Origin: Archangium sp. | Lineage (GTDB): Bacteria > Myxococcota > Myxococcia > Myxococcales > Myxococcaceae | Length of the DNA: 64,000 nucleotides | Reading direction: 5' to 3' | Assembly (NCBI GenBank): GCA_030695565.1 | Contig: JAUYRZ010000027.1 | Location: 1-64,000 of the forward strand | Part shown: one piece after another, positions 21,811 to 27,421 of the stretch | Numbering within the stretch: position 1 is the stretch's first letter | Layout of the letters: every line of letters starts with the position of its first letter | The notes under the pieces: model-generated | What the model saw: the letters and a program-made list of their open reading frames with translations, nothing else | Told to the model about the DNA's origin: nothing | The model's database searches: none | Program-made: the position numbers and the translations under genes

Positions 21811-23025
21811 TCAGGCGCTGGTCATCACCTGCGTGACGGCTTCTTCGAACAGCGCGTCGGGGATCGCCGCCAGAACGTCTTCGCGGCTGCCCTCGCTGCA
21901 CAACCAGCGACGCTCGTGACGGCGCAGCGCGAACCAGCCTTCCCCCGCCTGTCCGATGATCGCGTCGAGCTCGGCGATGCGCAGCTCCACTGAGCCACGA
22001 TAGCGGACCGAAGTGATGCGTGAGCGCAGCGCCGCCGAACTGCGCGGCACGAGCGCGCGCGACTCGGAGACGAGCAGGTACTGATCGAACTCGGCGAGAA
22101 ACGCCTTCACCTGCTGTGCCGGACTTCGCCCAAGGACGAGGCCAAACGCATTGAGCGCGCGGTCGATGGCGGGGCCCGGGCGCGTGTTCGTCAGCGCGGC
22201 GACCGCGTGGCTCACGGCGTTGGTCACGGTCGGCTCCGCACCCGCGCGACGCCGGAATGCGCGCAGCCGCTCGCGATCCGATGGCCGATCGCGGGCGAGC
22301 AGCTCGAAGAGGGGCTCGAGCGGCGCTCGCTCCGACGCGCTGGCGAATCGCCCCAGGCACGCCGCGAGCCATGCGATCACGTCGATGAGGTCGGGACCTC
22401 GCTCGAGCCTCGGGCCTCCCGCATAGACCTGGGGTCGCGCTGATGGCTCGACCGCCTCCAGCAGGCTCTGGAACGTGGGGTGGAGCGTCTGGGCGAAGGG
22501 CTGCTGGCTCAAGTCGTTGGCGGCCAGGAGCCCGCGCCACGCGAGGCCGAACGTGCTCGCGCGCAGGCGGCGCGGGATTCGCAACCAGTGTTCGGGCGTG
22601 ATGTCCCTGCGAATCGTCCACAACCCGGTCGGAGCAGCGGACAGGTCGATGCGCTCCCTCGAAATCAACGCGGCCAACGCTTCTTCGAACTCGGACTCTC
22701 GGCCCAGGTTGAGAAGGGCGCGCACTCTCCACCCTGCGGTGAGCACACTGCCAGGCTGGGCGTCGACCAACTCGAGCACTGACTCCCAGTTGGCGCGCCC
22801 GACGGCGATCGCCAGGCGCTCCTCCCACGACTCACCCGAGGCCACCACGTTCGCGAGCTTCAGCAGCTCGAGGCCCTTGGCGCCCCAGGCGCACTCCGCT
22901 TCGACGACCGTGCCGCAGGTCAGCGCGTGCACGTCGGCGAGCAGCGCCTCGGGAATGGAGACTGCCGAACGGTTCCAAGCCAGCACCCCGGCTTTGACCA
23001 CATCGAGCTTGAGCTGGAGCGCCAC
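21811..23025 (-). CDS. Hypothetical protein, helical, unrecognised
   Basis: 404 residues from GTG 23025, six bases after the GNAT stop, so probably in the ATP-grasp/GNAT operon. No signal peptide or membrane segment. Mostly Ala/Leu/Arg-rich helices (for example RVRALLNLGRESEFEEALAAL), suggesting an alpha-solenoid. The C-terminal about 70 residues (SVRYRGSVELRIAELDAIIGQ, GWFALRRHERRWLCSEGS) look like a small alpha/beta domain. I do not recognise it. Length and codon pattern support a real gene. Confidence 0.75.
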   Translation of the reverse strand: MALQLKLDVVKAGVLAWNRSAVSIPEALLADVHALTCGTVVEAECAWGAKGLELLKLANVVASGESWEERLAIAVGRANWESVLELVDAQPGSVLTAGWRVRALLNLGRESEFEEALAALISRERIDLSAAPTGLWTIRRDITPEHWLRIPRRLRASTFGLAWRGLLAANDLSQQPFAQTLHPTFQSLLEAVEPSARPQVYAGGPRLERGPDLIDVIAWLAACLGRFASASERAPLEPLFELLARDRPSDRERLRAFRRRAGAEPTVTNAVSHAVAALTNTRPGPAIDRALNAFGLVLGRSPAQQVKAFLAEFDQYLLVSESRALVPRSSAALRSRITSVRYRGSVELRIAELDAIIGQAGEGWFALRRHERRWLCSEGSREDVLAAIPDALFEEAVTQVMTSA

Positions 23026-23031
23026 CGCCCG

Positions 23032-23499
23032 TCAGAGCCTCTTGGCCAACACGATCAAATCGTCACCGGGCTTGTAGAAATCCCGGAAGCGAGACTCTTC
23101 TTTGTACTGCATCGCCGCGTAGAACCCGCGCGTCGGCCCGTAGGCCTCCATCGCCGAGGTCTCGACCCGAATCATGCGGCCCTTGCGCCTTCGAATGTCG
23201 CCCTCCATGGCCGACACGAGCGCCGCACCGACGCCCTGCCCCCGCACGAGGGGATCAGAAGCGATCCAATACAAATCGAACGTGCCCACCGTCATCGGCG
23301 TGGGGCCGTAGCAGACGTACCCGACGACCTTGCCGTCGCGGATCGCGCAGCGGACCTGGTAGTCAGGGTTGTTGGGCGTGAGCGCGGCGTCGATGAGCTC
23401 GAGCGCGCACACCGTTTCGTCCGGTGTGAAGGTCTCGATGCGGCTCAGCAGTTCGGCGAGCGGAGTCCGGTCGGGCGAGGCGAGGGGCCTGATTTCCAT
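23032..23499 (-). CDS. GNAT-family N-acetyltransferase
   Basis: 155 residues from ATG 23499 (MEIRPLASPDRTP); the frame is open 27 codons further upstream without GNAT-like content. The acetyl-CoA site is RGQGVGAALVSAM (86-98), preceded by the strand FDLYWIASDPLV. GFYAAMQYKEESRFRDFY is the usual C-terminal motif. The acceptor amine is unknown. The first 137 bases overlap the 3' end of the ATP-grasp gene in a different frame, so the two proteins are linked in expression and perhaps in pathway. Confidence 0.88.
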   Translation of the reverse strand: MEIRPLASPDRTPLAELLSRIETFTPDETVCALELIDAALTPNNPDYQVRCAIRDGKVVGYVCYGPTPMTVGTFDLYWIASDPLVRGQGVGAALVSAMEGDIRRRKGRMIRVETSAMEAYGPTRGFYAAMQYKEESRFRDFYKPGDDLIVLAKRL

Positions 23500-24490
23500 G
23501 ACGACGTTCCCAGGCGAGATCCACCAGGTGCAGCGCCAGATCAGCGAATGAGAGGCCGGCGGCCTCTGCAGCTCTGGCAAACCCTGCCTGCGGGTGGAGA
23601 TCGCAGTTGGGGTTGATGTCGATGACGAAAGGTTGGCCAGCGGCGTCGACGCGCAGGTCGACCCGGCCGTAGTCGCGGCACTCGAGCGCCTCGAAAGCGG
23701 CCACGGCCACTTCGATGCAACGCGCTTCGATGGCGGGCGGCAGCGAAGCGAGCTCAGAGGGGCTCTCGATGCACTCGGCCGACTCGAGATCCCACTTCGC
23801 CTTGTACGAGACGACGTTGGGCTTGCCGATGAAGGCGTTGCCGAAGCGGATCTCGGAGAGCGGGAGCGCGCGCCGCGGGTGGTTGCCCAGCAGCGGCACG
23901 TACACCTCGCGGCCTTCGATGAAGCGCTCCACCAGCGCGGGCTGGTGAAAGGTCCGCAACACCTTGGCGACGGCGCGGCCCAGGCCCTGGCGGGTGTGCA
24001 CCACCGAGTCGAAGTCGATGCCCATCGAGGCGTCTTCGCGCGAGGGCTTGACGATCAGCGGGAAGGGCAGATCGACGCGCGTGAGGTCTTCCACGTGCTC
24101 GACGATGCAGAAGTCGGGGGAAGGCACGCCGCGGGCGCGCAGGATCTCTTTGGCCTTGTTCTTGTGGAGGGCCAACGCGAGCGAGAGCGCCGACGAGCCG
24201 GTGTACGGCACCTGCATCAGATCGAGCATCGCGGGCACCAGCATCTCGCCGCGCGCATCGGCTGCCAGTGACTCGCAGAGGTTGAGCACCACGTCGGGCT
24301 TCTCGCCCGTGAGCGCTTCGTGAATGCCCAGCAGGTCGTGCTCGACCGGGATCAGCGTCACGCTGTGCTTCGACTTGATCAGCGCAGCGCGCATCGCCGC
24401 GGCCACCTTCACCACGTCTTCGCGGGCCTCACGGCCGGGATCATCCTCGAGCAGAGCGTGGTCGTGGTTGTGGAGGATCGCGATGCGCAT
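23363..24490 (-). CDS. ATP-grasp ligase, D-Ala-D-Ala ligase-like
   Basis: 375 residues from ATG 24490. ATP-grasp features: YTGSSALSLALALHKNKAKEIL (97-117, as in Ddl), FPLIVKPSREDASMGI (K148), a Glu-rich strand and the metal-binding DINPNCDLHP (291-300). The family ligates an amino acid or peptide to an amine with ATP. The core domain ends near 327; the last 45 residues are Arg/His-rich, overlap the GNAT gene and look like overprinted sequence rather than conserved domain. The true C-terminus may therefore come from a lost stop or frameshift. A dedicated Ddl for peptidoglycan is less likely, as no cell-wall genes are nearby. Confidence 0.88.
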   Translation of the reverse strand: MRIAILHNHDHALLEDDPGREAREDVVKVAAAMRAALIKSKHSVTLIPVEHDLLGIHEALTGEKPDVVLNLCESLAADARGEMLVPAMLDLMQVPYTGSSALSLALALHKNKAKEILRARGVPSPDFCIVEHVEDLTRVDLPFPLIVKPSREDASMGIDFDSVVHTRQGLGRAVAKVLRTFHQPALVERFIEGREVYVPLLGNHPRRALPLSEIRFGNAFIGKPNVVSYKAKWDLESAECIESPSELASLPPAIEARCIEVAVAAFEALECRDYGRVDLRVDAAGQPFVIDINPNCDLHPQAGFARAAEAAGLSFADLALHLVDLAWERRHGNQAPRLARPDSARRTAEPHRDLHTGRNGVRARAHRRRAHAQQP

Positions 24491-24573
24491 GCAGGAGTCA
24501 TCAACCGTGTACCACGCACCTGCTCCTGATGTGGAGCGAAAGCCTCGCGCGCGTTACACGTGCGGCTCATCGC

Positions 24574-25863
24574 ATGCGCATCCGAGATCCCATCCACGGA
24601 AGTCTCACCGTGTCTGACGAAGAGACGCGCGTCATCGACAGCCCCACCTTTCAGCGTCTGCGCCACGTGCGGCAGCTGGGCTTCGGCGATCTCGCGTTCC
24701 CTGGGGCGACTCATACCCGCCACGCGCACTCATTGGGTGCGATGCACGTCGCTTCGCGTTTGTTCGACGCGATCACCTCGCGCTCCGACCTGCCGGTGGC
24801 CACGCGCGATCGGTTTCGCGTCGCGGTGCGCCTCGCGGTGCTCTGCCACGACATCGGGCACATGCCGCTGTCTCACGCCTCCGAGAGCATCGCGCCTCCG
24901 CGCGCGGCGCTGCGGCTCCCCAGTTGGATGGGGGGCGAAGAAGCAGGGCAGGCCTCGCACGAAGACTTCACCGCCAAGCTGCTCATCGACTCGTCGCTGA
25001 GCGGGCTCATCGAAGAGGTCTACGCGCCGCTGGGCATCACGCCCACGCTGGTGGCCTCGTTGGTCACGGGTCAACTTCCCCCGGGCGCGGTGGGCTTCGT
25101 GGAAGGCGGCATCGACTGGGCGCCGGTGCTCAGGTCGATCGTCTCGGGCGAGCTCGACGCCGATCGCATGGACTACCTGCTGCGCGACTCCTTCTACACG
25201 GGCGTGAACTACGGCCGGTACGACCTGGAGTGGATCCTCCAGAACCTCTCGGCGGCCGAACGTGATGGCAAGGCCGTGTTGGCGCTGTCGAAGGCGGCCA
25301 TCTTCGCGTTCGAAGATTTCCTGCTCAGCCGCTACCACATGTTCCTGTCGGTCTATTTCCACCACACCTCGGTGAGCTTCGACTGGATGTTGCGGCGCTA
25401 CTACGAAGAGGCGCCCGGCGAGTTCGAGATCCCCGCGGACCCCGAAGCCTTCCTCCAGTGCGACGACATGACGCTGCACCTCGCCTTGCGCCGCTCGAAG
25501 AACCGGTGGGCCCAGCGCATCTCGCAGCGCCGCGGCTTCAAGCGGGTGGCGCAGTTCACCGAACGTGACGACGCGTACGACGTGGGCGAGCTGTCGAAGG
25601 CGCTCGATGAAGCAGGCGTGGAGCACTTCACCCTCGAGTCACGCGGCGTGTTGTCGCGCTACATCGACGAAGGCGAGAGCACCTCGCTGTACGTGATCGA
25701 TCGCTCCAACGGCCGGCTCACCGAGATCTCGAAGTACACCTCTCTCTATGAGCGCTTCTCCGGCGCGGTGAGGCTCTCGCGGGTCTACGTGCGGCCTGAT
25801 CAGTCGAGCGCGGGGCGCGAGGTCATTCACCGCATCACGGGCCGCATTCCCGAAAATGAGTGA
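24574..25863 (+). CDS. HD-superfamily phosphohydrolase, dGTPase-like
   Basis: 429 residues from ATG 24574, chosen because family members start with RIRDPIHG; an upstream ATG at 24529 would add 15 residues. Motifs: FPGATHTRHAHSLGAMH (43-58), VLCHDIGHMPLSHASE (89-104, HD pair H92/D93) and ELDADRMDYLLRDS further down, the typical histidine/aspartate metal set of the dGTPase-like HD family. Hydrolyses a nucleotide or phosphorylated metabolite; substrate not readable. Overlaps the Nudix-MBL start by eight bases, suggesting a joint role in nucleotide or metabolite clean-up. Confidence 0.92.
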   Translation: MRIRDPIHGSLTVSDEETRVIDSPTFQRLRHVRQLGFGDLAFPGATHTRHAHSLGAMHVASRLFDAITSRSDLPVATRDRFRVAVRLAVLCHDIGHMPLSHASESIAPPRAALRLPSWMGGEEAGQASHEDFTAKLLIDSSLSGLIEEVYAPLGITPTLVASLVTGQLPPGAVGFVEGGIDWAPVLRSIVSGELDADRMDYLLRDSFYTGVNYGRYDLEWILQNLSAAERDGKAVLALSKAAIFAFEDFLLSRYHMFLSVYFHHTSVSFDWMLRRYYEEAPGEFEIPADPEAFLQCDDMTLHLALRRSKNRWAQRISQRRGFKRVAQFTERDDAYDVGELSKALDEAGVEHFTLESRGVLSRYIDEGESTSLYVIDRSNGRLTEISKYTSLYERFSGAVRLSRVYVRPDQSSAGREVIHRITGRIPENE

Positions 25864-27421
25864 AGCGCTGCCCGGCGTGCCTGCTGCGCCTCCCGCGCCG
25901 CCGCCTCGGCAGGCCGCCGCGGTGGTGCTCTTTCAGCGAACGCTCGAGGGCCTGCAGGTGTTCTGGCTGGAGCGCGAACAGAAGCTGCGCTTCGCGGGTG
26001 GCTTCTTTGCTTTCCCCGGTGGGCGGGTGGACCAGGCCGACGCGCTGATTCCGGTGACGGGGCTCACTGCACCGGAATCGAAGTGGGTGGTGACCGCCGC
26101 GCGCGAACTCTTCGAAGAGACGGGCGTGCTCAAGGCGCGCGGAGCCGCGAAGCTCGCATCGCTCGAGCTCGACGAACTTCGTCGCGCCCTGCTCAGTGAG
26201 ACGATCGACTTCGGCGCGCTGCTTCAACGACGCGGGCTGACGCTCCACGCCGAAGACTTCGTCGCCGCGGGGCGGTGGATCACCCCGCCGTACGTGCCGG
26301 GTGGTTTCGACGCCCGCTTCTTCCTGGTGGAGTCGGAGCCTTCGCACCTCGCCCAGGTGTGGAAGGGCGAGCTCGCTTCTGGAGAATGGATCACTCCGCG
26401 CGAAGCCCTCGCACGCTGGGAGGCCGGTACCGCGCTCCTGCATCCCCCGAATCTTCACGGGCTGCAGGTGATGTCGCATTTCACCGACGTGCCCACCGCC
26501 GCGCGCGCGCTGAGCACGCCGTCGTTCTGCACCAACTTCGTCTCGGAGCGCATCGAGTTCCAGCGCGGCATCACGCTCTTCGCGCTGGTGACGCCCACGC
26601 TGCCACCGGCGACGCACACCAACGCGTACGTGCTGGGCACCGGCGAGTGCCTGGTGATCGACCCCGGCTCTCCCGATGATGAGGAGATCGATCGGCTCGT
26701 CGGCTTCCTGAAGGCGATCGAAAGCGAAGGCATGAAGGCGAAGGCCATCGTGCTCACGCACCATCACGGTGATCACGTGGGTGGCGTTCGCCGGCTGGTC
26801 GACGTGCTCGGTCTTCCCGTGTGGGCTCACGAACGCACCGCCGATCGTTCTCCCGTGCCGGTCTCTCGGCTGCTCAGCGATGGCGAGGTGATCGAGCTCG
26901 CCGGTCCGATGCCCATGAAGTGGAAGGTGCTGCACACGCCCGGGCACGCGCGCGGGCACCTCACCCTGGTGGACGAAAATTCTCGCGCGGCCATCGTGGG
27001 CGACATGGTGGCCGGCTACGGCACCATCGTGATCGATCCCCCCGAGGGCGAGATGGCCGAGTACCTGCGGCAGCTCGCGCGGCTCGAAGCGCTCCCGGTG
27101 GGCACCCTCTACCCGTCACACGGCCCGGTGATCCCCGACGGTCCGGGCAAGTTGCAGGAGTACGCCCTGCACCGCGCCTGGCGGGAAGCGAAGGTGCTCG
27201 AGGCGATCGCTTCGTTCGGCAAGCCGGTCGAGCTCTCCGCGGTGGTGCCGCGCGCGTACGACGACGTGGCCGCTTTCGTCTGGCCGATCGCCGAGCGCAA
27301 CACGGTGGCCATCATCGAAAAGCTGGTCGCCGAAGGCCGGGTCGAACGCACCACAAGCACCCACCCCAACCGCCCTCTCCCCGAGGGTGAGAGGGCGTTC
27401 TTCATCCCGGCGAAGGAATGA
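25856..27421 (+). CDS. Nudix hydrolase fused to metallo-beta-lactamase domain
   Basis: 521 residues from ATG 25856, overlapping the HD gene by eight bases. N-terminal Nudix domain (about 18-210): FAFPGGRVD and the core AARELFEETGV (81-91). C-terminal metallo-beta-lactamase domain with THHHGDHVGG (301-310), the downstream TPGHARGH and GDMVAG, and a winged-helix-like end (VELSAVVPRAYDDVA, VAIIEKLVAEGRV) as in LACTB2-type proteins. Probably hydrolyses nucleoside-diphosphate-linked or CoA-like compounds and a thioester or phosphodiester. The last about 15 codons contain a REP-like hairpin. Confidence 0.92.
   Translation: MSEALPGVPAAPPAPPPRQAAAVVLFQRTLEGLQVFWLEREQKLRFAGGFFAFPGGRVDQADALIPVTGLTAPESKWVVTAARELFEETGVLKARGAAKLASLELDELRRALLSETIDFGALLQRRGLTLHAEDFVAAGRWITPPYVPGGFDARFFLVESEPSHLAQVWKGELASGEWITPREALARWEAGTALLHPPNLHGLQVMSHFTDVPTAARALSTPSFCTNFVSERIEFQRGITLFALVTPTLPPATHTNAYVLGTGECLVIDPGSPDDEEIDRLVGFLKAIESEGMKAKAIVLTHHHGDHVGGVRRLVDVLGLPVWAHERTADRSPVPVSRLLSDGEVIELAGPMPMKWKVLHTPGHARGHLTLVDENSRAAIVGDMVAGYGTIVIDPPEGEMAEYLRQLARLEALPVGTLYPSHGPVIPDGPGKLQEYALHRAWREAKVLEAIASFGKPVELSAVVPRAYDDVAAFVWPIAERNTVAIIEKLVAEGRVERTTSTHPNRPLPEGERAFFIPAKE
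27371..27397. repeat. REP-like hairpin repeat, copy C, inside a coding end
   Basis: CGCCCTCTC (27371-27379) and GAGAGGGCG (27389-27397) form a 9-bp stem with a 9-base loop. It lies within the last codons of the Nudix-MBL gene, encoding RPLPEGERA, just before the convergent Cys-rich gene. The long tail of the other copies is missing. Confidence 0.7.

Follow-up and report, generated by a model that had tools for sequence, protein, structure and literature searches.

In the window, by which we mean the whole 64,000-nucleotide stretch of DNA that was analysed, two genes on the reverse strand share part of their coding sequence. The upstream gene (24490..23363, -) encodes an ATP-grasp ligase of 375 amino acids, with a folded part comprising approximately residues 1-332 and a tail of residues 333-375. 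The downstream gene, running from an ATG at 23499 to a stop ending at 23032 (-), encodes a GNAT acetyltransferase of 155 amino acids. The 137-base overlap between them that was noticed in the original prediction was borne out: bases 23363..23499 (-) are read both as ligase residues 331-375 plus the stop and as GNAT codons 1 to 46 (up to the second base of the latter). Relative to the ligase, the GNAT is read in the +1 frame, so that within the overlap a ligase codon takes its first base from the third position of one GNAT codon and its other two from the first and second positions of the following one. As had also been supposed, the last 45 residues of the ligase (331-375), among them 11 Arg and 5 His, overprint the GNAT 5' end. 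The GNAT frame was further said to be open for 27 codons upstream of its ATG. The frame is indeed open, but counting 27 codons leads no further than a TTG at 23580, and no stop is met back to 24054, a distance of 185 codons. Because this DNA is GC-rich, an open frame of such length says little.

Both proteins can be placed in families. The ligase matches Pfam PF07478 (92.5 bits against a cut-off of 24), which places it in the ATP-grasp D-Ala-D-Ala ligase C-terminal domain superfamily, and the downstream product was assigned to GNAT by PF00583 (34.8 bits against a cut-off of 20.7) and by a fold match. The ligase has the same superfamily and fold as D-alanine--D-alanine ligase (Ddl) and the COG1181-type ATP-grasp ligases, but by the curated NCBIfam cut-off it does not qualify as a Ddl, as its best model, NF002378, scores 144.1 bits and the cut-off is 243. 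Its last motif reads DINPNCDLHP, whereas the Ddl of the source genome has EVNTLPGMTP. That separate Ddl (L005) lies above the cut-off, and together with the cut-offs it rules out that the overlap ligase is the housekeeping Ddl. Elsewhere in the same genome, a 695-aa open frame (L003; G000 contig C40, approximately 98201-100270) contains two D-Ala-D-Ala-ligase-like stretches, with no match to the overlap GNAT nearby.

Structures of both proteins were predicted from alignments that took in 39 of the 90 gene pairs described below. In the AlphaFold model of the ligase (mean pLDDT 83.7) the last helix spans residues 315-331, while residues 333-337 and 339-375 have a pLDDT below 50, and the tail is predicted to be disordered. 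The GNAT model has a mean pLDDT of 91.9. The nearest solved structure to the GNAT is PDB 2r7h of Desulfovibrio desulfuricans (TM 0.93, 36% identity; profile E 2.7e-37), a member of the same GNAT subfamily that was deposited as a 'putative D-alanine N-acetyltransferase'. This label appears to be the depositors' guess, and for the GNAT described here it can serve as a putative name only. In searches of 195 genomes of the phylum, run at different E-value limits for the two proteins, the ligase was found in 96, the GNAT in 100 and both in 94. Given the enzyme families and this co-occurrence, the pair likely comprises a ligase that forms amides of small molecules and a partner that N-acetylates, and on the same grounds an N-acetylated amino-acid conjugate is a plausible product. 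Among eight records of plasmid-borne GNAT relatives, no ligase match was present in the five neighbourhoods that were inspected (the Ensifer record being unannotated).

To collect relatives of the pair, we drew on a search of 144 genomes, a scan of genome contigs, the search of 195 genomes of the phylum and fetched stretches; Archangium, Myxococcus, Corallococcus, Pyxidicoccus and others are represented. From 169 input loci we removed 49 duplicates and a further 30 (16 without a ligase-GNAT pair, 12 below 57% identity and two with the GNAT cut by a contig end), which left 90 distinct complete pairs with ligases at least 57% identical. All 90 pairs overlap, by 89-146 bases, in the same phase and at the same GNAT start region. 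The overlap measures 131 bases in 34 pairs, 89 in 27, 110 in 17 and 137 in seven, with lengths of 101, 113, 119, 122 and 146 occurring once each. GNAT codons 1-28 (23416..23499, - in the window) lie within the overlap of every pair, the shortest being 89 bases. By parsimony, the position of the ligase stop changed 11 times on the tree of the 90 pairs. The lengths of both genes and the overlap are kept in orthologues (90/90), as is expected of a real co-directional overlap. Ninety independent pairs rule out a sequencing error or a local frameshift as its source, and by sequence comparison the overlap is not peculiar to the source genome.

We then asked how much of this could be expected by chance once a ligase stop is lost. 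In 106 mechanically called genes of the source genome, the same phase counted from the gene start is open for at least 28 codons in 69% and for at least 44 codons in 55%; in two relatives' genomes the corresponding values are 68% and 57% (72 genes) and 78% and 65% (60 genes). The net charge per residue (R+K-D-E) is 0.18 in the ligase tail, against 0.12 +/- 0.10 (s.d.) for the same phase of other genes. In this phase, therefore, chance suffices for the tail's length and for its richness in Arg, and since the phase is so often open by composition, a 45-codon run-on in a single genome is unremarkable. What goes beyond chance is the conservation of the overlap and purifying selection on the ligase reading. 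The chance-like length and composition lend some credit to a neutral run-on, in which the stop was lost, a meaningless tail was tolerated and all conservation is due to the GNAT; the predicted disorder of the tail and the 11 moves of the ligase stop agree with it as well.

To examine selection on the ligase frame, changes were counted by parsimony on a tree of the 90 pairs, built from the same two genes without the overlap. Expected numbers were derived from rates per branch and per amino acid or codon, taken from ligase columns 1-318 and from GNAT columns 56 onward. Control windows average approximately 1 by construction, and their spread served as the yardstick. The silent rate in the overlap was 0.69, compared with 0.84-1.12 in 24 overlapping 45-codon control windows. 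Upstream of each lineage's own ligase stop there were 193 GNAT-silent changes where 298.4 were expected (0.65), and past the stop, within codons 29-47, 49 where 57.8 were expected (0.85). When the comparison of the two sides of the stop was confined to GNAT codons 29-47, p was 0.011. An early pairwise silent-site test of GNAT codons 2-28 against codons 51 onward (p = 0.056), in which one pair had a partial ligase, was superseded by these tree-based counts.

The depletion is found in a particular class of change. A change was termed radical if the BLOSUM62 score of the ligase residue change was below 0 or if it produced a stop. Before the stop, GNAT-silent changes that were radical for the ligase numbered 67, against 157.2 expected (0.43), while other changes numbered 81, against 95.6. 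The radical ratio of observed to expected was 0.47 for codons 2-44 and 0.43 for codons 2-28; 18 control windows ranged from 0.93 to 1.19. After the stop, 29 radical changes were observed and 23.5 expected, and in GNAT columns 56 onward, where the same pseudo-frame was read as a control, 517 were observed and 471.3 expected. The depletion in the overlap was significant both against the pseudo-frame control (Fisher p = 3e-9) and against the region after the stop (p = 9e-4). At single sites, ligase Arg345 had no radical change where 9.2 were expected, and Arg352 none where 3.6 were expected. Constraint on the GNAT cannot account for a depletion of GNAT-silent changes that is limited to those radical for the ligase.

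The same pattern recurs within clades, although the counts after the stop are small. In the clade on the side of the window (19 tips), 16 radical changes were found before the stop where 55.4 were expected, and three after it where 2.2 were expected. The Myxococcus-type clade (27 tips) had four against 16.9 before the stop and 19 against 11.5 after it. For the Corallococcus-type clade (15 tips) the counts were zero against 9.8 and then two against 3.5, the latter tiny and not above 1. A larger group of 63 tips, containing the Myxococcus- and Corallococcus-type clades, gave 29 against 65.5 before and 23 against 18.0 after. In a 64-pair set, GNAT codons 31-36 evolved at a rate of 2.05 in the clade with 89-base overlaps, where they follow the ligase stop, and at 0.0 and 0.40 in two clades where they precede it; downstream rates in these three clades were 2.03, 1.78 and 1.03. 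Judging from these counts, the constraint on GNAT silent sites moves with the ligase stop of each lineage. That the depletion is confined to the bases upstream of each stop is a further point against a neutral run-on, which was already disfavoured and which we regard as unlikely. Purifying selection, as measured by these sequence statistics, acts on both frames in the overlap, and on this evidence the GNAT 5' end has the predicted-disordered C-terminal tail of the ligase as a second product under selection.

One further signal was not relied upon. Silent changes that would create a ligase stop were absent from GNAT codons 1-28 (0 against 12.2 expected) and not depleted in codons 29-47 (11 against 8.4). 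This signal of stop avoidance, carried by T at third positions, is strong by a Poisson standard, but we discounted it because the control windows were over-dispersed (1 against 11.4, 3 against 10.6 and 0 against 4.7).

Silent sites in the first GNAT codons could also be constrained by an RNA or initiation signal, either a structure or low structure near the start. Third-position A begins to be frequent at the GNAT start codon, reaching 17.7% in GNAT codons 2-28 compared with 2.8% after codon 50 (64-pair set), and a mild enrichment of A is seen at gene starts of these genomes in general: in ordinary genes of three genomes, third-position A amounts to 8-12% in codons 2-5 and 5.6-7.1% in codons 19-28. 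This usual start-of-gene effect may account for some of the excess of A in the earliest GNAT codons. However, RNAalifold, run on 25 of the 90 sequences, found no consensus pairs, and the first 45 codons of the ligase itself show no reduction (observed/expected 1.08). Moreover, the effect extends to codons 29-43 in those lineages whose ligase reads that far and is absent in the others. Such a signal as the source of the constraint is, in our judgment, quite improbable.

How the GNAT is translated was addressed from its start region. The start is ATG in 89 of the 90 pairs; the exception, L111, has an ATG two codons upstream of where the start is projected. A mispredicted GNAT start was ruled out, since the first strand (residues 2-5) is part of the model, with a block mean pLDDT of 96, and the ATG is so widely kept. 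In the window, the probable ribosome-binding region lies in the codons of the last ligase helix at 23500..23515 (-), where GGGAACGTCGTC precedes the ATG. The codon for ligase Arg329, just before the GNAT start, is one of the rare Arg codons AGA and AGG in 66 of the 90 pairs, by a raw short-motif count. AGA and CGA together account for 54 of the 90, against 4-9% of Arg codons in gene interiors. The source genome has CGT at this position, with GGGAA upstream. These features fit a ribosome site, rich in purines, that is embedded in codons of the ligase. The ligase terminates 89-146 bases beyond the GNAT start, too far for ordinary stop-start coupling to be likely, and independent initiation of the GNAT would be the simplest reading.

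The original prediction had offered programmed frameshifting, yielding a ligase-GNAT fusion, as one explanation of the overlap, and had called for a search for natural fusions of the two domains. Frameshifting into a fusion is not supported. The GNAT does lie in the +1 frame, which in the source genome is open for 185 codons upstream, and the ligase of that genome ends in CCC-TGA, the only context here that we take to be possibly shifty. However, the two open reading frames were in one frame in none of the 101 pairs examined (the 90 and 11 more distant ones), so that no natural fusion was found among them, and in eight of the 90 the GNAT frame is closed one to seven codons above its start. The context of the ligase stop is not conserved either, with CCC-TGA in five of 90 pairs and a stop position that varies. 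According to the model, a shift at the ligase stop would remove the first 29 to 48 GNAT residues, including the first strand and helices, and the GNAT keeps a start of its own. The pairs do not combine a conserved slippery site with an open downstream frame, and we consider a +1 frameshift fusion very improbable indeed.

The origin of the overlap was approached through the distant pairs, which comprise 11 of the 12 loci below 57% identity; in the twelfth, L092, the GNAT lies 2.3 kb away. Same-phase overlaps are present in L185 (20 bases), L082 (32), L109 (38), L088 (65), L108 (95), L103 (110), L106 (125) and L105 (131), the starts being uncertain in L185 and L108. L104 has a 4-base ATGA junction instead of a long overlap, and in the Bdellovibrio-like L085 and L087 the genes are separated by gaps of 5 and 17 bases. 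A ligase ending cleanly beside a separate GNAT, the arrangement named in advance as speaking against the original prediction, thus occurs only outside the family, in these three loci, and not among the 90 pairs. L104 groups with L106, and the clean junction it shows could reflect a reversal or else be a remnant; as it does without the overlap, the overlap is dispensable in at least one lineage. Its earlier attribution to the loss of an ancestral stop is in line with our results: probably a stop or frame was lost, and the ligase then ran into the GNAT. In L106 (G106 C870) the GNAT frame stops after 79 residues with the overlap retained, owing to a broken GNAT or a sequence error, and in L109 and L185 two or three ligase-like genes adjoin the GNAT, which suggests that a cluster with several ligases exists as a variant form.

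Taken together, we hold it to be highly probable that this is a genuine, old same-strand overlap with two selected reading frames. Herein, we describe how it may have formed and how it may work. The ligase, an ATP-grasp enzyme of the D-Ala-D-Ala ligase superfamily, and the GNAT are encoded in the same direction. In or before the Myxococcales, the ligase stop would have been lost, or its frame shifted, at a short junction. The ligase frame would then have extended across the GNAT 5' end, in the -1 phase relative to the GNAT. This run-on would have turned into the 29 to 48 residues of the present C-terminal tail, which is predicted to be disordered and which, by the sequence statistics, is kept by purifying selection. 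The GNAT would be translated separately, from its conserved ATG and the purine-rich site in the codons of the last ligase helix. The pair probably makes, and then N-acetylates, a small amide or dipeptide-like product, and the tail probably gives the ligase a flexible segment for contacts, which is the weakest step. A more specific and doubtful idea is that the tail, disordered and rich in Arg, acts as a tether or assembly segment by binding or recruiting the very GNAT that the shared bases encode. If so, a docking peptide and the N-terminus of the protein it docks to would come from one stretch of DNA, and the two enzymes would be held together without fusion.

Long same-strand overlaps in bacteria are generally dismissed as annotation errors, and the ligase-GNAT pair offers a family-wide counterexample. 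The rnpA and rpmH genes of Thermus overlap extensively. In the literature on overlaps, rnpA-rpmH and ligase-GNAT pairs, represented non-exhaustively by titles and the first lines of abstracts, no paper on the ligase-GNAT pair was found. In their survey of 338 genomes, Palleja et al. (2008; PMC2478687) accept as real no co-directional overlap longer than 60 bases among 715, the longest accepted being holD-rimI of enterobacteria, at 56 bases. As described there, holD-rimI resembles the present case in being co-directional, lying over the 5' end of a GNAT-type gene, being conserved in its family and varying in length between genera; it differs in measuring at most 56 bases, compared with 89-146 bases and a selection test on both frames for ligase-GNAT. 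The phase bias of same-strand overlaps is attributed to composition by Sabath et al. (2008; PMC2542354). Later cases of same-strand overlap may exist. The ligase-GNAT overlap is unusually long and well controlled, and the apparent guarding of both readings is unusual for same-strand bacterial genes. It comes with an internal control: as the ligase stop shifted along the tree, so did the constraint on the silent sites of the GNAT. It is a clean test case for the birth of a protein tail by overprinting and its subsequent retention, and a warning to annotation pipelines to trim neither gene.

The genes around the pair differ in how widely they are shared. A 404-aa ORF directly downstream of the GNAT (21811..23025, -) was matched by neither Pfam nor NCBIfam models at 0.001, and tblastn against the 98 other loci likewise gave nothing. 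In the close relatives L007 and L008, a homologue of the kup-like neighbour already lies within the short fetched flank; because it is so near, the 404-aa ORF looks inserted or lineage-specific. Upstream of the ligase, a divergent HD-domain gene (24529..25863, +), dGTPase-like and below the NCBIfam cut-offs, has a homologue in 81 of the 99 loci searched, the window's own included. It is followed by a 521-aa ORF (25856..27421, +) with homologues in 31 of the 99 loci, in which, by eye and from motifs, we presume a Nudix-like N-terminal part joined to a metallo-beta-lactamase-like part.
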